From contig NZ_HE978531.1 in the NCBI RefSeq assembly GCF_000311745.1, positions 1 through 64,000 of the forward strand: DNA of 64,000 bases, in the 5' to 3' direction. Source of the DNA: Anaerococcus obesiensis ph10. Lineage in GTDB: Bacteria > Bacillota > Clostridia > Tissierellales > Peptoniphilaceae. Of this stretch, positions 48,796 through 60,130 are shown piece by piece. How positions within the stretch are numbered: the stretch's first letter is position 1; every line of letters begins with the position of its first letter. Made by a program: the position numbers and the translations under genes. The notes under the pieces are model-generated. The model was not told the origin of the DNA. It searched no databases and worked only from the letters and a program-made list of their open reading frames with translations.

Positions 48796-49676
48796 TTAAT
48801 TTAATCCTGTAAATTTATTTTTTGTTTTCATATAGGCTGCAATGATTTCTGCGCCCAAAATTATTGTCAATGAAAATAAAAGCATCCAAACTAATAAGGC
48901 TATAATTCCTGCCAAAGCTCCGTAAATAACAGACATATTGCTCATATTATTTAAGAAAAATGAATAGGCAAAGCTTGTTATGGTAATCATAATTGTTGTA
49001 GAAATTGAGCCGACAAAGGCGTCTTTGAAGCTTATTTTTATTGAATTATTGTAAGGCGCACACTTGTATAAAAGGCTTAGACCAAGAATTAAAATTATTG
49101 GCGGAAGTATTCCTGAAACTAAATTGATTAGCCAGGTAAATTTTTCAAGAGAAAATGACGAATTTACAAGTTGCAATACATTTTCTATTAAATTTAAAAT
49201 TCCATTTGAATAAATTCTTAGCAAAAATAAAAATATTAGGATAAAAATAAGGATAAATGTATACAAAAATCCAAATATTTTATTTTTTATCATGGAATGA
49301 TCGTCTTCAAGTCCGTAGGCTACATTTATTGCAAGAATTATTTTTGAAACTCCTTTTGATGCTGACCAAAGGGCAAATATCAATGTGATTGTAGAAAGTG
49401 TTGAAACTGATGATGAATTAATAATTGATTTTACAAGCATCAAAATTACACCTCTTATTGTTTCTGGCAAAAGCTCAATAAATTCTACAATTACATCTTC
49501 GTTACCTTTCATATATTTTGTGACAAGATTTAACAAAACCAAAAGCATGGGAATTGCTGCTGACAAAAAATAATAGGAAAGAGAAGACGCCAAGGTCATA
49601 ATATCGTGGGACTTTGCTCTTTCAATTAGGGTAAAAATAAATTTTTTTGTTTTTTTGATTTTATTTTTCCTTTCAT
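48796..49676 (-). CDS. YihY/BrkB family membrane protein (frameshifted)
   Basis: An integral membrane protein of the YihY family (once suggested to be RNase BN, now considered unrelated). About six transmembrane segments, with LASSLSYYFLSAAIPMLLVL near the N-terminus and the closing YGALAGIIALLVWMLLFSLTIILGAEI. The uninterrupted frame begins mid-protein at 49599. Adding one base to one of two A7 runs (49642-49648 or 49650-49656) extends it to ATG 49676 and gives FIFTLIERAKSHDIMTL. That ATG overlaps the stop of the preceding S9 peptidase gene (ATGA). Confidence 0.85.
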
Positions 49677-51582
49677 TTTAAGTACCCATCAAACCAATCT
49701 TTAATTTTTTCTATTCTTTTTATTCTTGCTTTTGGCTTTCCTGATCTTGACAATTCGTGATTTTCTCCGTGAAAAATATACATTTTTGTATCAACGCCAT
49801 TTTCTTTTATTCTTGTATACATTTGAAGACCTTGCTCTAATGGACATCTATAATCTTCGTCAGAATGAATAAACATTGTTGGAGTTTTTACATTTTTCGC
49901 GTGTTTAATAGGAGATTGCTCCCACATTTTTTCTAAATTATCCCAAGGATTTGCTCCTGTTTGGTCAGGCGCAAAATAATATCCTATATCAGAAACTCCA
50001 TAGAATGAAGTCCAATTTGAAATTGACCTTTGAGAATTTGCAGCCTTAAATCTATTTGTGTGTGAAACAATCCAATTTGTCATAAATCCACCATAAGATC
50101 CGCCATAAACTCCCATATTATTTTCATCAATTTGTGGATATTTTTTTATAGCAAAATCTGTAAAATTCATCAAATCTTCATAGTCAATAGTTCCATATTT
50201 TCCTCTAATATCAGAATATTTTACGCCATTTCCACTTGAACCGTGTGGATTTGTATAAATAATTATATATCCATCATTTGCAAAAACTTGGTGCTCGTGG
50301 TGGAAAATATTTGAAAATTCTGTTTTTGGTCCGCCGTGGATTGATAAAATGGTAGGATATTTTTTGTTTTTATCAAAATCTACTGGCAAAAGAACAAATC
50401 CTCTAATTTTATCGCCGTTTGATTCATAGAAAAACTCTTCGATTTTTCCAAGTGATGAATTTATTTTATTATCAAGTAAAATTTTGTTATTTTTCTTTTC
50501 TTTTAAGTGGGAAATTCTATCTTCTGTCATTGCAAAATAATAAATATTGTCATTTGCTATTGCAAAATCTTCAACGCAACCAGAAATTTCCAGTTTTATA
50601 TTTTCATTTTCATCTAAGGAATAAAGTTTTGATTCTTCTTTTTCTGTAACTACAAAATAAAATTTATTGTTTTTGTAAAAAAAAGTCCTATAAGCTTCGT
50701 ATCTTGCATCGCTACCAATAGAATTGCCAAAAGATTTATCAAAATCATCAGGACTTATTTTTTTATATTCTCCAGTTAAATTGCTTTTGTAGATAAAGGC
50801 ATCTTCATTTATTCCGCCTTTTTTCATATCACTTGCCACAAAAATAATTTCATCTTTGTCATTAAAAAATAAATCATAATAGGCAAATTTATTTTCGATT
50901 ATAATTTTTCTTCCTTATTTTCTAAATCTAAAATTACTAAATCATCTCTAAGTCTTGAAACTTTATTATCATTTTTTCCCAAAACTAGAGCTAATTTATT
51001 TGCGTTTTTATTTATTGCAAAAGCATTTAGACTTTCATTTTCAAAATCTCTAATTTTTTGAAGACTTTTATCTTCTTTTTTGAAAAGGTAAAGACTTTGT
51101 TTTTGATTATTTATATAACCTGTGCCATTAAACCAAAAAGGCAATTTGCTAACTTCCTTATAAAAAGAATTTTCCTTTTGTTTTTTCCTTTCGTCCTCTT
51201 TTAATTTGTCGCTAGCTTTTATCAAATAATATCCATTTTTTAAATCTTTGATATATGAAACATTCTTATCAATTTTAAATTCTAAACTTCCAACTCCCAT
51301 TGACCTATCTTTTTTATAAAAATAATCAAATTTATCGTCGGATTTTTCCTTGTAAATTAAATTATCATTTTCATCAAAAATAAAGATTCCAATATTTTTA
51401 TTGTCAGAAACTTTATATTTTTTATTTTTTTCTATATCAAAAAGATAAAGATAAGAATTGTATTTATTTTCGTCTAAATCGGCATTTGTTTTTAAAAAAG
51501 CCAAATATTTTTCGTCATTAGATATTTCAAGACTTGAATAAAAATCATAAGTTAAAATATCATTAATTTTTGTTTTTTCCAT
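49673..51582 (-). CDS. S9 family peptidase, acylaminoacyl-peptidase type (frameshifted)
   Basis: Prolyl-oligopeptidase-like serine peptidase of about 636 residues: an N-terminal beta-propeller (ISNDEKYLAFLKTNADL, YLYLFDIEKNKKY) and a C-terminal alpha/beta-hydrolase. The nucleophile Ser is in GVYGGSYGGFMTN, Asp in HSDEDYRCP and His in HGENHELS. The frame breaks at the A5 run 50905-50909 (this strand); one extra A gives EEKIIIENKFAYYDLFF and joins the halves. The second ATG (51582), with AGGAGG upstream, is the start. It probably degrades peptides in the cytosol, since no signal peptide is seen. Confidence 0.9.
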
Positions 51583-51696
51583 TTCTCCTCCTTGCATTTA
51601 TCTCATTATACAATAAATTTTAATAAAGAAAAAACTAAAGGTTTACATTAAACTTAGGGGGGTATATATATAATATCAAAAGGACGGAGGTTCAAT

Positions 51697-52230
51697 ATGA
51701 AATTAAATATTAAAGGTAAAAACATCAATGTTTATGAAAGCTTAAAAGAAGAAGCTAAGGAAAAATTTGATAGGCTTGACAAATATTTCAACAAGGAAGA
51801 AGAAATGGACCTCAAATTTTCTACCGAAGGTAATTTAAAAAAAGTTGAATCAACCATTTTTCTTAAAGGCGGAACAATTTTAAGAGCTGAGGAAGTAAAT
51901 GATAATTTCTCAACAGGAATTGATAAGGTAATAGATGCTTTGGTTCGTCAAATTAGAAAACAAAAAACAAAATTACAAAGAAATAGAAGAAATGGTGAAT
52001 CAATTAAATTTGAATCCTTTGATAACATTGAAGAAGGAAAAGAGGAAAATATTCCAAAGATCAAAAGACAAAAAGAAATAGTTCTAAGACCTATGAGCGA
52101 TGAAGAAGCTTGTATGCAAATGGAATTATTAAACCATGATTTCTTTATATACTTAGATGATGAAGAAATGAAAACAAGACTTGTATATAAAAGAAAAGAT
52201 GGACATTACGGATTAATTATTCCCGAATAA
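51697..52230 (+). CDS. hpf: ribosome hibernation promoting factor, long form
   Basis: Dimerises ribosomes to 100S in stationary phase or stress. The 177-residue length shows the long form: an N-terminal domain of about 1-100 (LNIKGKNINVYESLKEEAKEKFDRLDKYF) and a C-terminal dimerisation domain (KEIVLRPMSDEEACMQMELLNHDFFIYLD). A -35-like TTTACA at 51642 and TA-rich -10 region precede it, and CGGAGG lies 7 nt before the ATG. Followed by a terminator, so monocistronic. Confidence 0.94.
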   Translation: MKLNIKGKNINVYESLKEEAKEKFDRLDKYFNKEEEMDLKFSTEGNLKKVESTIFLKGGTILRAEEVNDNFSTGIDKVIDALVRQIRKQKTKLQRNRRNGESIKFESFDNIEEGKEENIPKIKRQKEIVLRPMSDEEACMQMELLNHDFFIYLDDEEMKTRLVYKRKDGHYGLIIPE

Positions 52231-52240
52231 AATAAATTAG

Positions 52241-52271
52241 CTGCTGCAAATTATTTTGCAGCAGTATTTTT
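52241..52271 (+). terminator. terminator after hpf
   Basis: A ctgctgcaaa/tttgcagcag stem, 4-nt loop and T5, 10 nt past the stop. Confidence 0.9.
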
Positions 52272-52333
52272 GTGTTCACTAAAATTTTTTTGATATAATA
52301 TAAATAAAAATATTTAAATATGAGGGATAAATA

Positions 52334-53140
52334 ATGAAAAAAATTGCTATAGTTGGTTTAGGATTAATGGGCGGTTCTTTTGCTAAGGCTTTTATAGAGT
52401 ATAGTGATAATATAGTTTATGGCTATGATATTGATGAAAAAACAAAAAAATCGGCCAAGAATTTTGGTATAAAAATAATTGAAGATAAGAATGAATTAAA
52501 AAAAATGGATCTTACAATTATTTGTTTAAATCCATTAACCATAAAAAATTTTGTTGGAAAAAATTATAAATACTTATCCAAAACTGTTATGGAAATTTCT
52601 GGAGTAAAAAATAATTTGCATCCATATATAAAAAAATTATCAGAAAAATATTCTTTCGTATATAAATCAATTCATCCTATGGCTGGTAGAGAAGTTTATG
52701 GCTTTGAATCTTCTTTAAAAGATTTATACAAAAATGCTTCGATGATTTATGTTGATGATTTAGATGATGAGGAAATTTCTTTATTTAAAAAAATTGGATT
52801 TAATAAATTTGTAAAGGCAAGTCCCAAAAAACACGATGAAATGATTTCTTTTACATCTCAACTATGTCATGTGATTTCTAATGCTTATGTATTAAATCAA
52901 AAAAGCATTTACCATGATGGATTTTCTGCTGGGAGTTTAAAAGATATGACAAGAGTTTCAAAGATTGATGAAAACTTATGGTCAGAATTATTTTTATTAA
53001 ACAAGGATTTTTTGATTGAAGACATAAATACAATGATAGAAAACTTGGAAGAATTAAAAAATGATTTGAAAAATAATGACGTAGATAGATTAAAAGCCCA
53101 ACTAAAAAAAGGAAATGACATAAGAAAGAAGATGTGGTAA
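52334..53140 (+). CDS. tyrA: prephenate dehydrogenase
   Basis: Oxidatively decarboxylates prephenate to 4-hydroxyphenylpyruvate for tyrosine synthesis. The 268-residue protein has the N-terminal Rossmann motif IAIVGLGLMGGSFAKAF, VMEISGVKNNLHPYI and the catalytic-site segment KSIHPMAGREVYGFESS. HDEMISFTSQLCHVISNAYV and SAGSLKDMTRVSKI follow in the C-terminal domain. It lacks the ACT domain present in longer TyrA forms. First gene of the aromatic cluster; its stop shares a base with the aroB start. Confidence 0.92.
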   Translation: MKKIAIVGLGLMGGSFAKAFIEYSDNIVYGYDIDEKTKKSAKNFGIKIIEDKNELKKMDLTIICLNPLTIKNFVGKNYKYLSKTVMEISGVKNNLHPYIKKLSEKYSFVYKSIHPMAGREVYGFESSLKDLYKNASMIYVDDLDDEEISLFKKIGFNKFVKASPKKHDEMISFTSQLCHVISNAYVLNQKSIYHDGFSAGSLKDMTRVSKIDENLWSELFLLNKDFLIEDINTMIENLEELKNDLKNNDVDRLKAQLKKGNDIRKKMW

Positions 53141-54171
53141 TGAAATTAAGTGTAGATTTAATAAATCCCTATGAAATAGAAATAGGCTCAAATATTATAA
53201 AAAAATTAAATACATATTTAAAAGAAAATTATAAAAATTCAAAAATTTTAATTATAAGCGATGACTTAGTTTATAAAATCCACAAAGAAAAATTAATTAA
53301 AGAGCTTGATGGATTTTTTTATAAAGAATTTATAATAAAAAATGGAGAAAGTTCAAAATCAACAGAAAATCTGATAAAACTTCTAGAATTTGCTGCTGAA
53401 AATCAATACAGAAGAAATGATTTAATTATTGCTTTTGGTGGAGGAGTTGTAGGAGATATTTCTGGGCTTGTTGCATCTTTATATCTTAGAGGAATTGATT
53501 ATATTTCAATTCCAACTACTTTTTTATCAGCAATTGATTCATCAGTTGGAGGAAAAACAGCCGTAAATTTAAAGGCAGGAAAAAATTTGTGTGGAACTTT
53601 TTACCAACCCAAAAAAGTTTTTATTGATACAGATTTTTTAAAAACTCTTTCGGATTATTATTTTAATGATGGTTTGGCTGAGGCTATAAAATATGGAATT
53701 ATAAAAGATAAGTCTATTTTTGATGAAATTTCAAAAGAAAATGTAAGTAAAACTTACGAAAATCTCCCATCAATTATAAAAAAATGCTTGGATATAAAAA
53801 AAGATGTGGTTAAAGATGATGAAAAAGATTTTGGTATTAGGCAAATTTTAAATTATGGCCACACATTTGCTCATGCTATAGAGAAAAATTCAAATTTTGA
53901 AATAAGCCATGGCCATGCGGTTGCTCTTGGTATGAAAATTATGGTTAAAAATTTTTACGAAAGTTTTTACGATGATTTTATAAAAGTGTTGAAAAAATAT
54001 AATCTTGATAAAAAAATTGATTTTGATACAGAAAAAATATTAAAAGTTTGTATGGTTGATAAAAAATCAAGAAATGACAGGATAAATATAATTGTTGTGA
54101 GAAATCTTGGAACTTGCGAAATTTTAAATATAGATTTAAAGGATTTGAGGAAAATTTATGAAAACAGATAA
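53140..54171 (+). CDS. aroB: 3-dehydroquinate synthase
   Basis: Second shikimate-pathway step. The 343-residue protein has NAD-binding GGGVVGDISGLVASLYLRGIDYISIPTT (about 103-130), SSVGGKTAVNLKAGKNLCGTF and the zinc ligands in the EAIKYG, LNYGHTFAHAIE and HGHAVALGM segments. ATG 53140 is used; an in-frame GTG at 53134 would add two residues. It overlaps aroA by 14 nt. Confidence 0.95.
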   Translation: MKLSVDLINPYEIEIGSNIIKKLNTYLKENYKNSKILIISDDLVYKIHKEKLIKELDGFFYKEFIIKNGESSKSTENLIKLLEFAAENQYRRNDLIIAFGGGVVGDISGLVASLYLRGIDYISIPTTFLSAIDSSVGGKTAVNLKAGKNLCGTFYQPKKVFIDTDFLKTLSDYYFNDGLAEAIKYGIIKDKSIFDEISKENVSKTYENLPSIIKKCLDIKKDVVKDDEKDFGIRQILNYGHTFAHAIEKNSNFEISHGHAVALGMKIMVKNFYESFYDDFIKVLKKYNLDKKIDFDTEKILKVCMVDKKSRNDRINIIVVRNLGTCEILNIDLKDLRKIYENR

Positions 54172-55387
54172 TATTTTAATTCATCCATCAAGGCTTGAAG
54201 GAGAAATTGACGCCATTTCCTCAAAATCTTATGGACATAGGGCTTTGATTTTGGCAGGTCTTTGCGAAAATCCTACAAATATTTATATTAATGAATTTTC
54301 AAAAGATATAAATGTAACTATTGATGCTTTAATAAATTTGGGAGTTGGGATTGAAAAATTTGAAAATTTTGTAAAAGTTACTCCTCCAAAAGAAAAAATA
54401 GAAAAAGCCACAATAGATATGTACGAGTCGGGTTCTTCACTAAGATTTTTTTACAGCTGTAGCAAATCATTTTGCCAAAGAAGTAAAAATTATTGGAAAA
54501 GAAAGATTAAGTCAAAGACCAAATTATGAATTAATAAAAAATTTGAGAAAGCATGGTCTTGAAATTTCATCTAATAAAATTCCTTATACGATAAAGGGAA
54601 ATTTATTTGGCGGAAATTTTGAATTTTTTGAAAACAAATCCAGTCAATATATTACCGCAATTATGCTTGCGTCAAGCAAATCATCTGGAAAAACTTCGAT
54701 AAAATTAAAAGAAAAACCCGAATCGCTTGGCTATATTGATATAAGCAGAGAAGTTTTGAAAGATTTTAATGTAGATGTAAAAGAAGAAAATAATTCTTAT
54801 TTTATAAAAAATCCACAAATAAAATCGCCTAATAATTATTATGTTGAAGGCGATTGGTCAAATGCTGCCTTTTTTTATGGGGCAAATCTTATAAATTCTA
54901 AAATAAAAATCAACAACTTGAAAGAAGATTCCTTGCAAAAAGATAGGGAAATTGTAGATATTATAAAAAAATTAAAAATTGCAAAAATGAAAATAAGACA
55001 CTTGAAATAGATATTTCTCAAATTCCAGATCTTTGTCCAATACTTGCTCTTCTTTTAACATATTTAGATAAAACGTCTTATATTACAAATGGAAAAAGAT
55101 TGAGGCTTAAAGAAAGCGATAGGCTTGAATCAACTTCAAAAATGCTAAATGATTTGGGAGCGAAATGCGAAATTATTGGAGATAATCTAAAAATTTCAGG
55201 GAAAATAAAATCTGGAACAGTCGATTCTTTTAATGATCACAGAATTGTAATGGCAGCAAGCATCGCTTCCTTAATGGCAAAAGATGATATTATTATAAAA
55301 AATTATAAGGCAGTAAACAAATCCTATCCTTCATTTTTTAAAACTTTTGAAAAATTAGGAGGAAAAATTGAGTATTTAGGAGCTTAA
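54158..55387 (+). CDS. aroA: EPSP synthase (two frameshifts)
   Basis: Makes 5-enolpyruvylshikimate-3-phosphate. Three open pieces (to 54529, 54543-55010 and from 55100) form one protein of about 410 residues. The first break lies at T7 54446-54452, where T6 gives SSLRFFTAVANHFAKEV and is the only case here of an apparent extra base. The second lies at A7 54965-54971, where one more A gives IKKIKNCKNENKTLEIDISQIPDLCP. Active-site elements are present: SKSYGHRALIL, RPNYEL, QYITAIMLA, EGDWSNAAFF, KESDRLEST and NDHRIVMA. The stop abuts the next start. Confidence 0.92.
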
Positions 55388-56875
55388 ATGGAAGATTTAA
55401 AAGAGATTAGAAATCAAATTAATAAAATTGATGAAGAAATTATAAATTTATTGAAAAAAAGATTTGACCTTTCAAAAAAAGTTAGAGCCTACAAAATTTC
55501 CCACAATAAAAAAATTTACGATCCAAAAAGAGAGCGAGAAATTTTAAAAAAAATAAAAGAGAAAAGTCCTGAATACGGCGAATATTTTCTTCCTATTTTT
55601 CAAGAAATTATGGATCAATCGAAAAATTTACAAAAAGAAGAAGAAAAATATGGACTTTTAGGAAAAAGTTTAGCTCATTCTTATTCAAAAATAATTCACG
55701 AAAAAATAGCCTTTTATGATTACCAATATTTTGAAAAAAACGAAGAAGAATTAGATTATTTTTTTGAAAGAAGAGATTTTAAAGGAATAAATGTAACAAT
55801 TCCCTATAAAAAAACAGTAATGAAATACCTAGATTTTGTTTCAAAAAAAGCAGAAAAAATTGGAGCAGTAAATACAATTGTAAATAAAAATGGAAAACTT
55901 TACGGTTACAATACTGATTATTATGGATTTTCTTATAATTTGAGAAAAAATAAAATAAATGTAAAAGATAAAAAATGCTTAATTTTAGGAAAGGGTGCTT
56001 CATCAGAAACTGTAAGCCAAGTTTTAAAAGATGAGGGGGCAAAAAAAATAGTATTTTTGTCAAGAAAATATAAACCTTATTTTAAAGATGTAAAAGATTA
56101 TTTTGATTTTGATATTATAGTAAATACAACTCCTGTTGGAATGTATCCAAATAATGGAAAATATTTAAAAGAAATTAAGCTCTATGATTTTAAAAATTTA
56201 GAGGCAGTTGTAGATTTAATTTACAATCCATATATGACAAAAATTATAGCTTGTGCCAAAGAAAAAAATATAAAATATGCAACAGGTTTTGATATGTTGC
56301 TTGCCCAAGCAGTAAAAGCAAGCGAATTGTTTTTGGATAAAAAAATTGATGAATCACTGATTGAAAAAATAAAAAAATCTATTTATAAAGAAAAAATAAA
56401 TATAGCCCTAATAGGTATGCCAGCAGTAGGCAAAACCAGTCTTGGAAAAATTTTGGCAAAAAATATGAATAGAAAACTTGTCGATATTGATTTAGAATTT
56501 GTAAAAAAATATGGCAATATTGAAGAATTTTTTAATAAATATGGGGAAGATGAATTTAGAAGAAAAGAAAGCCAAATAATAAAAGAAATTTCAAAAAAAA
56601 CTTCTCTTATTATAAGCTGTGGCGGAGGAGTTGTTGAAAGGAAAGAAAATTATTATTTCCTAAAAGAAAATTCTCTAATAGTAGAAGTAAAAAGAAATTT
56701 AGAAGATTTAGAAGTGGAGGGAAGACCTATTTCAAAAAAATATAATTTATTTGACTTGTATAAAAAGAGAAAAAAATTATATGACAGTTTTAAAGATTTT
56801 GAGGTGGAAAATAATAATTTGCTGGAATGTGCTAAGGAAATTGAGGTGAAATTTTATGAGAATATTGATAATTAA
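55388..56875 (+). CDS. trifunctional chorismate mutase / shikimate dehydrogenase / shikimate kinase
   Basis: A 495-residue fusion of three enzymes. Residues 1-85 are an AroQ-type chorismate mutase (IRNQINKIDEEIINLLKKRFDLSKKV, then REREILKKIKEKSPEYGEYFLPIFQEIMDQS). Residues about 88-335 are shikimate dehydrogenase AroE (GLLGKSLAHSYSKIIH, NVTIPYKK with catalytic Lys, GAVNTIV, NTDYYGF with catalytic Asp, LGKGASSETV, NTTPVGMYP). Residues about 340-495 are shikimate kinase AroK (Walker A GMPAVGKTSLGK, DIDLEF, CGGGVV, GRPISKK). It thus covers two mid-pathway steps plus the branch to prephenate, feeding tyrA. No stop or homopolymer shift was seen between domains. Confidence 0.92.
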   Translation: MEDLKEIRNQINKIDEEIINLLKKRFDLSKKVRAYKISHNKKIYDPKREREILKKIKEKSPEYGEYFLPIFQEIMDQSKNLQKEEEKYGLLGKSLAHSYSKIIHEKIAFYDYQYFEKNEEELDYFFERRDFKGINVTIPYKKTVMKYLDFVSKKAEKIGAVNTIVNKNGKLYGYNTDYYGFSYNLRKNKINVKDKKCLILGKGASSETVSQVLKDEGAKKIVFLSRKYKPYFKDVKDYFDFDIIVNTTPVGMYPNNGKYLKEIKLYDFKNLEAVVDLIYNPYMTKIIACAKEKNIKYATGFDMLLAQAVKASELFLDKKIDESLIEKIKKSIYKEKINIALIGMPAVGKTSLGKILAKNMNRKLVDIDLEFVKKYGNIEEFFNKYGEDEFRRKESQIIKEISKKTSLIISCGGGVVERKENYYFLKENSLIVEVKRNLEDLEVEGRPISKKYNLFDLYKKRKKLYDSFKDFEVENNNLLECAKEIEVKFYENIDN

Positions 56876-57290
56876 CGGACCAAATATAAATATGCTTGGA
56901 ATTAGAGAAAAAAATATTTATGGCTCAAAAAATTATAAAGATTTAATAAAATATATAAAAGAATACACTGAAGATAAGGACATTGAAATTGAAATTTACC
57001 AATCAAATTCTGAAGGACAAATTATAAATAAAATTCAAGAAGCTTATAATTTGTACGATGGAATTGTAATAAATCCAGCAGCTTATACTCATACATCAAT
57101 TGCAATTTTGGATGCACTAAAAGCTGTAAATATTCCAACAGTTGAAGTGCATTTGACAGATGTAGATAAAAGAGAAGATTTTAGAAAAATATCTTACGTT
57201 TCATATTTTGCCAAAAAAACTATTAAAGGCAAGGGATTTGATGGTTATATAGAAGCGATTGATTTTTTAAAAGAAAATTATGATAAATAA
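56856..57290 (+). CDS. aroQ: 3-dehydroquinate dehydratase, type II
   Basis: Third shikimate-pathway step (144 residues). The family signature INGPNINMLGIREKNIYG lies at 5-22, with catalytic Tyr at 22 equivalent, NPAAYTHTSIAILDALKA near 71-88 and VEVHLTD. GAGGTG precedes the ATG, inside the end of the fusion gene. Last gene of the cluster. Confidence 0.95.
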   Translation: MRILIINGPNINMLGIREKNIYGSKNYKDLIKYIKEYTEDKDIEIEIYQSNSEGQIINKIQEAYNLYDGIVINPAAYTHTSIAILDALKAVNIPTVEVHLTDVDKREDFRKISYVSYFAKKTIKGKGFDGYIEAIDFLKENYDK

Positions 57291-57416
57291 ATTTGTAAAT
57301 TTATTTTACAATTTGTTGATTTTCATTTAATATTATATTTGTGATAGTTTAATCCTAACTTATTGCCAAAAGCTTATAAAAAGGGTAGGATATACAGAGA
57401 ATTAGAGGTGAAAGAT

Positions 57417-60130
57417 TTGGCGTTATTAAATATATTTAAATCATTTAGTCAAAAAGAAATTGATAACAACCAAAAATTGGTTGATAAAATTTTAGCACTA
57501 GATGAAGATATGCAAAAATTAACAGATAAACAGTTACAAGATAAAACTAATGAATTTAAAGAAAGATTAAATAAGGGCGAAAGTCTTGATGATTTATTGG
57601 TAGAGGCATTTGCAACAGTAAGAGAAGCAAGTGATAGGGTTTTGGGAATGAAACACTATCCAGTTCAATTACTTGGTGGAATTGTTCTACATAATGGACA
57701 AATTGCAGAGATGAAAACAGGAGAAGGAAAAACTTTGGTTGAAACTCTTCCTGCTTATCTAAATGCCCTTGATGGAAAAGGCGTTCACATAGTTACAGTA
57801 AATGATTATCTTGCAAAGCGTGACCAAGAGTGGATGGGAAAAGTTTATTCATTTTTAGGTCTTACAGTAGGTTGTATAATTTATGGACTTACAAATTCAG
57901 AAAGACAAAAAAATTATAACTGTGATATAACTTATGGAACAAACAACCAATTTGGTTTTGATTATCTAAGAGATAACATGGTTATTTATAAGGACAATAT
58001 GGTTCAAAGAGGACTTCACTATGCCATAGTCGATGAGGTTGACTCAATTTTAATAGATGAAGCTAGAACACCACTTATTATTTCTGGAGAAGGCGATGAA
58101 TCAACTGATACTTATGTAAAAGCAGATGAATTTATAAAAGGCCTTGAAGGAAGAATTTTAGATCCAAACGAAGATTTAGATCAAGATCCATTTGATAGAG
58201 AATTTGTTGTAGAAAAAGTAGATTTCTTAGTTGATGAAAAAAGAAAATCATCAAACCTTACAGAACAAGGTACAGCAAAGGCAGAAAAATTCTTTGGAAT
58301 TGAAAATTTATCAGATCCAGAACATCTTGAACTTGCTCACTACATCAACAATGCTTTGAAAGCAAACACTACAATGACAAGAGATATTGATTATGTTGTA
58401 AATAATGGCGAAGTTATGATTGTAGATGAATTTACTGGACGTATCATGCAAGGAAGAAGATATTCTGATGGTCTTCATCAAGCAATTGAAGCAAAAGAAG
58501 GCGTTGAAGTTCAATCAGAATCAAAAACTCTTGCAACAATTACCTTCCAAAATTACTTTAGAATGTATGATAAATTATCAGGAATGACTGGTACTGCAAA
58601 AACAGAAGAAGAAGAATTTTCAGAAATTTATAATCTAGATGTTGTAGAAATTCCTACAAATAAACCAATTCAAAGAGTTGATGATGTAGATTATGTTTAT
58701 ATAAATGAAAATGGAAAATATAATGCGATAATTGAAGAAATTAAAAGAGTACATGCAACAGGTCAACCAATCCTTGTAGGTACAATTTCAATAGAAAATT
58801 CTGAAAAATTATCAAATGCTCTTAAAAAAGAAAAATAAAACACGTTGTATTAAATGCAAAAAATCACGAAAGAGAAGCTGATATAGTTGCTCAAGCAGGA
58901 AGATTAAATTCTGTAACAATCGCAACAAATATGGCAGGCCGTGGTACTGATATTATGCTTGGTGGAAATGCCGATCACATGGCAAAACAAAGATTGAAAA
59001 GAGAAGGAATCTCAGAAGAATTGCTTGAACAAGTTGACTCTTTCCAAGAAACAGACAACCAAGAAATATTAGAAGCAAGAAAAAAATATAAACACTACAA
59101 ATCTCTAGTAAAACCTGGCATAGATGAAGAAGCTAAAAAAGTTAGAGAAGTCGGTGGACTTTATATAATTGGTTCAGAAAGACACGAATCACGAAGAATT
59201 GATAATCAGTTGAGAGGTCGTTCTGGAAGACAAGGAGATCCAGGAAAATCAAGATTTTTCATTTCATTAAAAGATGACTTGATTAGACTTAATGTTGGAG
59301 AACAAATTTCAAAATTTGTAGAAAATTATAATTATCCAGAAGATGAACCAATTGTTTCAAAAATGGTTACAAGGTCAATTGAAAAAGCTCAAACAAGAGT
59401 TGAAGCAAATAACTTTGCAACAAGAAAAAGAGTTCTTCAATACGACGATGTAATGAACAAACAAAGAACAATAATCTATAACGAAAGAAAACAAGTTCTT
59501 TACGGAGAAAATATGAGAGATTCAATTCTTGGAATGATAAAAGATTCAATCTCCCAATCCGTTTATTCATTTACAAATCCACAAGTAAAACCAGAAAATT
59601 GGGAAATGGTTGCTTTATTAAATCATTTAAAATCAATTGCAATTCCTGTTGAATTATTGAAGTTTGAAAATATAAATGATTTTACTCAAGAAAAACTAAT
59701 AGATTATATTTACCAAACAAGCTTAGAAAAATATGAAAATAAGGAAAAACAATTTGGCGAAGAAAACATGAGAGAAGTTGAAAGAGTTGTTTTACTTAGA
59801 GTAATTGATACAAAATGGATGGAACATATCGATTCAATGGATCAAATGAGAAAAGAAATTGGTGTAAGGGCAATGGGAAATGATGATCCTGTAAGAGCTT
59901 ACACAAATACTGGTTTTGATATGTATGAAGAAATGACTAATGCCATCCAAGAAGAAACTGTAAGACTTATGATGGGTGTTGAAATCAGACAAAATATTGA
60001 AAGAAAACAAGTTTTAAAACCTGATGAAGAAGGATTTGAAAATCCTGAAAATCCAGAAGAAGCAACAAACAGGGCTGAAAGAAGAAGATTAAAAAGAGAA
60101 GCTAAAAAAGGACACATCAAGGGTAATTAG
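57417..60130 (+). CDS. secA: protein translocase subunit SecA (frameshifted)
   Basis: ATPase motor of the Sec export pathway, about 904 residues. Visible are the DEAD-type [55 protein letters not shown] and, after the break, [14 protein letters not shown] and [25 protein letters not shown]. The frame breaks at A5 58831-58835; one extra A gives [29 protein letters not shown] at 57417 is the start (AGAGGTG upstream; product MALLNIF), not the longer open frame from 57363. The C-terminus ends in a Lys-rich tail without the Cys-rich SecB-binding zinc motif. Confidence 0.94.

Follow-up and report, generated by a model that had tools for sequence, protein, structure and literature searches.

A single gene of Anaerococcus obesiensis ph10 encodes one intact chain of 495 residues that joins chorismate mutase (CM), shikimate dehydrogenase (AroE) and shikimate kinase (AroK). 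The fusion is genuine, and it is a recurring rather than an isolated case. It lies in the window analysed here, the first 64,000 nucleotides of contig NZ_HE978531.1. Judging from sequence comparisons, we consider it probable (about 0.8) that the product is a genuine catalytic trifunctional enzyme, homodimerised by its CM part and born by gene fusion within an operon.

Gene structure, active sites and assembly integrity

The fusion gene occupies positions 55388..56875 of the forward strand as a single open reading frame of 495 codons plus stop, whose ATG start lies immediately after the aroA stop and 5 bases downstream of AGGAG, its likely ribosome-binding site (55378..55382, +). As the sequence-only reading had proposed, this one frame joins the three enzymes, and each has a Pfam match. 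The type II CM domain covers residues 1-84 (55388..55639, +), with CM_2 matched at residues 7-83 (76 bits against a cut-off of 27); the shikimate dehydrogenase domain covers residues 86-335 (55643..56392, +), with Shikimate_dh_N at residues 90-164 (60.6 bits against 27); and the shikimate kinase domain covers residues 336-495 (56393..56872, +), with SKI at residues 346-479 (98 bits against 22.1). SDH_C, the small C-terminal AroE model, was absent among the Pfam matches of the protein. The PDB relatives of the three parts are chorismate mutases and CM-DAHP synthases (2d8d and 3nvt), shikimate dehydrogenases (5dzs first and 3fbt second) and shikimate kinases (4y0a and 2pt5), respectively. The NCBIfam scores were strong though under the curated cut-offs, narrowly for the CM model TIGR01805 (66.5 bits versus 71.2), and also for the aroE equivalogs TIGR00507 (162.1 versus 200.2) and NF001322 (175.3 versus 285) and for the best aroK equivalog (77.5 versus 204), which marks the chain as a divergent member of these families.

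The joins between the domains are tight: CM ends at about residue 84 and YGLLG, the motif of the first AroE strand, begins at residue 88, while AroK starts right after the last AroE helix without a linker. Within residues 70-100 and 320-345, in-frame ATG, GTG or TTG occurs only at codons 75 and 344; both lie inside domains, which makes it unlikely that internal starts yield AroE or AroK as separate products. The AlphaFold2 model of the single chain, built from only 5 alignment rows, had a mean pLDDT of 44.4, and so no domain arrangement is argued from it.

Each domain had also been credited with its main active-site residues, and all 24 residues checked are indeed present in the window protein (8/8 in CM, 7/7 in AroE and 9/9 in AroK), so that none of the three domains has the missing catalytic residues that the sequence-only reading had named as a ground for refuting it. 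In CM they are R8, R25, K36, D45, R48, E49, S78 and Q82, which we take to be the equivalents of R11, R28, K39, D48, R51, E52, S84 and Q88 of the E. coli enzyme. The AroE residues are S98, S100, T137, K141, N162, D177 and Q307, of which K141, D177, N162 and S98/S100 provide the catalytic Lys, Asp, Asn and Ser of a shikimate dehydrogenase, and the AroK residues are the P-loop G343-K349, D366, D368, R391, G412-G414, R446 and R461, with the P-loop, DxD, FR..E, GGG, lid RP and R...Y motifs of shikimate kinases all in place; the roles of the residues in the three domains are assumed from general knowledge. Over 35 chains, eight of the nine AroK positions were invariant and the ninth was a gap in one truncated chain, and R25 of CM and N162 and Q307 of AroE were likewise invariant. 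The remaining CM positions were kept in 30-32 of the 35 chains, except Q82 (21/35), and the S98 position held S in 23 and T in 9; most of the CM and AroE substitutions occur in one genus, g4. Each domain is under purifying selection, with dN/dS values of 0.07-0.35 in every domain when the window gene is compared with four relatives.

The nearest named genome, A. vaginalis ATCC 51170 (96% protein identity), differs from ph10 by a handful of single-base length differences over 12.8 kb. These indels break aroA, secA (57363-60130, split into reading-frame pieces) and, on the minus strand, a gene for an S9-type peptidase (49673-51597, also split), all of which are intact in A. vaginalis ATCC 51170, and since secA is an essential gene, they are probably assembly errors. 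Their existence is what lends some ground to the idea that an assembly or frameshift artefact joined three genes, which we regard as extremely improbable and rejected: none of the indels falls in the fusion gene, which shows zero length difference from that of A. vaginalis ATCC 51170 at 95.8% identical DNA, and the chain is intact in independent assemblies, A. jeddahensis among them, with uninterrupted full-length matches in relatives. By eye, the chorismate synthase of the ph10 assembly likewise lies in two frames.

Operon order and probable repeated fusion

Upstream of the fusion gene, the operon contains tyrA, encoding prephenate dehydrogenase (52334..53140, +; PDH_N and PDH_C), aroB, encoding 3-dehydroquinate synthase (53134..54171, +; profile matches in Pfam and NCBIfam), and aroA, encoding EPSP synthase (54158..55387, +), which is in three reading-frame pieces here but unbroken in relatives, A. 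vaginalis ATCC 51170 among them. Downstream, aroQ, encoding the type II 3-dehydroquinate dehydratase (56856..57290, +; Pfam and NCBIfam), begins inside the fusion gene and shares its final 20 bases. The aro genes (51697-57363) are flanked by a gene resembling that for a ribosome hibernation factor and by secA, two genes that are neighbours in Bacillus; by our searches the aromatic pathway is patchy within Anaerococcus, where 18 of the 31 genomes gave no match to the chain at E 1e-5, and the flanking genes and this patchiness suggest an inserted, accessory operon.

AroE and AroK act in sequence and CM acts later, so that, as the sequence-only reading had remarked, the order of the domains is not simply that of the pathway; an explanation by pathway order was rejected, and the domain order follows instead the gene order of the operon in relatives. 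In G047 (f12, L066) aroB, aroA, aroC, CM, aroE and aroK stand in that order, all unfused, and three f19 genomes (L102-L104) have CM, aroE and aroK separate and adjacent, while a frequent arrangement in relatives is aroC, then CM-PDT (with prephenate dehydratase, PDT), then AroE-AroK, then aroQ. Other junctions of the same operon are fused as well. An AroC-CM-AroE-AroK chain of four enzymes forms an 863-residue open frame in two genera (G086 and G094; L060:3829-6417 and L061:3607-6195), and G488 has a CM-AroE-AroK-AroQ chain in a 661-residue open frame (L076:1366-3348). Further combinations are AroE-AroK-AroQ (G071), CM-AroE-AroQ (G372 and G437), CM-AroK (G095, G096, G137 and G140), CM-AroE with a separate AroK (family f25, L116-L120), AroB-AroE (G389, L122:942-2903) and shikimate kinase followed by type I dehydroquinase (G569, L121). 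Pfam confirmed the chains at L051, L053, L054, L060, L061, L069, L076, L114, L115 and L122, that of G071 included, whereas those of L052 and f25 rest on our own profiles, the CM of L052 also matching PF01817.

A full-length match to the triple chain in one open frame was found in 23 of the 130 genomes of the family, spread over seven genera; a CM_2 match lies within the chain in 20 of them, and the other three are genomes of genus g4, in which the CM region of the chain goes unrecognised by Pfam. The chain is interrupted in three further family genomes (G003, G007 and G013). Among the matches listed for the 249 genomes of the order, no full-length one fell outside the family. The searches of the class and the phylum covered samples of 391 and 398 genomes, and as lower bounds they gave at least 10 full-length rows in the class (f20, f57 and f60), with G401 in addition, where AroK was added by the domain map, and at least one more in the phylum (G690 of f132, with CM_2 in the same frame). 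The fusion chain holds the only above-cut-off CM_2 match in 41 of 44 fusion-bearing genomes, and no PDT was found in 27 of the 44.

In a tree of 115 AroE+AroK rows, the label CM-AroE-AroK was clustered and required 9 changes, well supported branches forcing at least 8 of them. A careful tree was built from 45 chosen rows, 13 of them CM-fused, and there the fused rows required 6 changes, at least 4 of them forced; such counts do not separate gain from loss. The 13 rows formed one clade in none of 200 bootstrap trees of the 45 rows, and a single clade of fused chains was rejected by the AU test (p-AU 0.00019, 45 chosen rows of the 115), which makes repeated fusion likely. The trees were built without the frameshifted chains of G007 and G013 and without the G690 chain; taken alone, they may also be compatible with one early fusion and several later fissions. 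Overall, related anaerobes seem to have built triple and larger chains several separate times from adjacent genes. The clearest gain is that of G387, which is sister to G286 and G449, both with a CM-PDT followed by AroE-AroK. Identity between its CM and that of those two CM-PDT proteins is 65% and 60% (next best 50%), the G387 junction keeps their SYQEKL linker start after CM and their KKFGLLG/RKFGLLG start before AroE, with PDT missing in between, and no PDT was found in the genome, which is 85% complete. This suggests that the CM of G387 is the stump of a CM-PDT gene after a presumed loss of PDT. In f60, all nine triple-bearing genomes also encode a prephenate dehydratase (L151-L159) whose N-terminus resembles CM, scoring 28-38 bits with our own profile, and there the equivalents of K39, D48 and R51 are replaced in 9/9, the intact CM being that of the triple chain.

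These observations also bear on whether the close packing of the operon yields fusions as nearly neutral side effects, through small deletions or stop loss, that bring neither channelling nor regulation. We lean against this explanation while giving it real weight, for CM or CM-PDT and aroE overlap or lie one stop codon apart in most of the unfused pairs listed, several junctions of one operon are fused and the G387 junction resembles a PDT loss, whereas neutrality does not require the label to be clustered on the tree or the chain to be uninterrupted, as it is, across 10 species of g57 and 9 of f60. Frequent fusion and retention could both be true.

Relation to known fusion enzymes

AROM is the standard multifunctional case of the shikimate pathway. 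The window chain shares only shikimate dehydrogenase and shikimate kinase (SK) with its five domains, and aroB, aroA and aroQ are separate ORFs. According to the part available of PMC6851490, the eukaryotic, pentafunctional AROM is homodimeric and likewise unites several enzymes of the pathway in one chain, but in the form DHQS-EPSPS-SK-DHQD-SD, covering five steps and having no CM. Among smaller fusions, PDB 3FBT ('chorismate mutase and shikimate 5-dehydrogenase fusion protein'), which ranks second among the PDB matches of the AroE domain (E 4.5e-40), resembles the window chain in that CM and AroE are annotated as one protein; it differs in having no AroK, and its solved chain of 282 residues was matched in the AroE part only. 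AroE-AroK fusions have these two domains in the same order as here without CM, and are carried by at least very many members of the class in our sample; they are described for 42 of 55 Methanomicrobiales and two bacterial assemblies in the part available of PMC11237513, where the domain order is unstated and CM-PDT and CM-PDT-PDH fusions are also reported. With three domains, the window chain is neither a CM-AroE pair of the 3FBT type nor an AroE-AroK pair. The bifunctional DHQD-SK of Clostridia (CASP15 T1180, UniProt R7C7N8; PMC10792529) is likewise a clostridial shikimate-pathway fusion with shikimate kinase, but has a type I dehydroquinase in place of AroE and no CM, and the accessible text of that article describes prokaryotic shikimate steps as typically performed by single enzymes, with bifunctional fusions only as exceptions. 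In CM-PDT (PheA) and CM-DAHPS the type II CM is the N-terminal partner, as here, although the partner enzymes differ; CM-PDT occupies the same operon slot in many relatives, whereas the PDT of ph10 is a separate gene elsewhere. The accessible portions of PMC3608921 and PMC5897657 name only CM-PDT, CM-PDH or CM-DAHPS pairs.

Pair fusions of the pathway are thus already published, and the triple and larger chains extend them. The sequence-only reading had made novelty depend on the architecture not being widely catalogued, and this can be upheld only in part: the architecture is widespread in genomes, but no paper describing the CM-AroE-AroK triple or the larger chains was found in the open-access full text searched. 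Repeated fusions of three and four enzymes within a single bacterial lineage, with close relatives that are unfused, half-fused or fused, are natural material for telling channelling, dimerisation or feedback from a neutral collapse of the operon. Animals lack the pathway, which serves as a target of drugs and herbicides (PMC6851490, from the part available), and a fused target may respond differently to inhibitors.

Probable function and its possible loss in one genus

If the chain is, as we favour, a trifunctional enzyme, AroE would convert 3-dehydroshikimate to shikimate, which the linker-less AroK would then phosphorylate in the consecutive step, and the N-terminal CM would convert chorismate to prephenate for the Phe and Tyr branches. 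The sequence-only reading, in which AroE and AroK work in succession and CM later, agrees with this scheme. The type II CM is an intertwined dimer, and so the CM part is predicted to join two chains, each with its AroE-AroK half, into a homodimer. The chain itself would derive from fusion of neighbouring genes in an operon of the order aroB-aroA-aroC-CM(or CM-PDT)-aroE-aroK-aroQ; since CM acts downstream, its inclusion presumably reflects gene history, dimerisation or feedback being a possible gain, and any channelling between the active sites would likewise be a putative benefit.

The fusion chain carries the only above-cut-off CM_2 match of the ph10 genome, and also its only Shikimate_dh_N and SKI matches; an AroH-type CM was not found there, and since the genome is 92% complete, a second CM could be missed. 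Besides tyrA, the genome has, elsewhere, a separate prephenate dehydratase gene, and both enzymes need prephenate. These data matter for a different role of the CM part, namely that it is mainly regulatory, binding chorismate or prephenate and feeding back on AroE and AroK. CM regulates CM-DAHP synthase in Bacillus and Listeria, fusions of CM to enzymes of the pathway are frequent, with CM-DAHPS among the PDB matches (2d8d and 3nvt), and genus g4 keeps a full-length N-terminal region despite loss of CM and AroE residues, which fits a non-catalytic role. We nevertheless find a mainly regulatory CM unlikely in ph10, where the catalytic residues are complete and a purely regulatory protein, being the only CM found, would leave prephenate synthesis unprovided.

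The three genomes of genus g4 (G032, G084 and G085; L064, L065 and L098) encode a full-length chain with substituted CM and AroE active sites. The CM lacks the equivalents of K39, R51 and E52; the AroE lacks those of S14, S16 and T61, has the D102 equivalent changed from D to E and keeps the catalytic Lys in one chain of the three. The checked AroK residues are kept, and Ser replaces the first Gly of the GGG motif of the kinase in 3/3 chains. Within 9-10 kb around two of the g4 chains, no other aro gene of the reference set was found. A separate 93-residue CM accompanies the degenerate fused one in G085, in line with CM activity being the thing retained, but the genomes of G032 and G084, lacking any CM_2 match, do not agree with this. 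With the chain of G387, which lacks the D48 and R51 equivalents of CM, the g4 losses indicate that catalysis by every domain is not universal among the relatives, and the g4 chain is possibly a pseudoenzyme scaffold or reflects a new role for the kinase. A broader scenario, which we offer as speculative and rather doubtful, is that the clostridial aro operon is a recurrent maker of bacterial counterparts of AROM with up to four enzymes, in which CM, often a stump left by loss of PDT from CM-PDT, would serve both as an enzyme and as a dimerising or feedback-sensing hub, one genus having decayed to a non-catalytic CM-AroE scaffold on a kept kinase.

Some minor observations concern other genes of these genomes. 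A weak second CM_2 match in ph10 at 220920 (20.8 bits, cut-off 27) was discarded, the ORF looking by eye like a sigma factor. The prephenate dehydratases of Anaerococcus (L029 and L160-L166) have an N-terminal extension of about 60-80 residues; no CM remnant is claimed there, as the similarity to CM was too low to be of use (at most 2.8 bits over 8 PheA). In addition to the triple fusion, G008 has a second aro operon (L068) with a different AroE-AroK pair that is 42% identical to the window chain.
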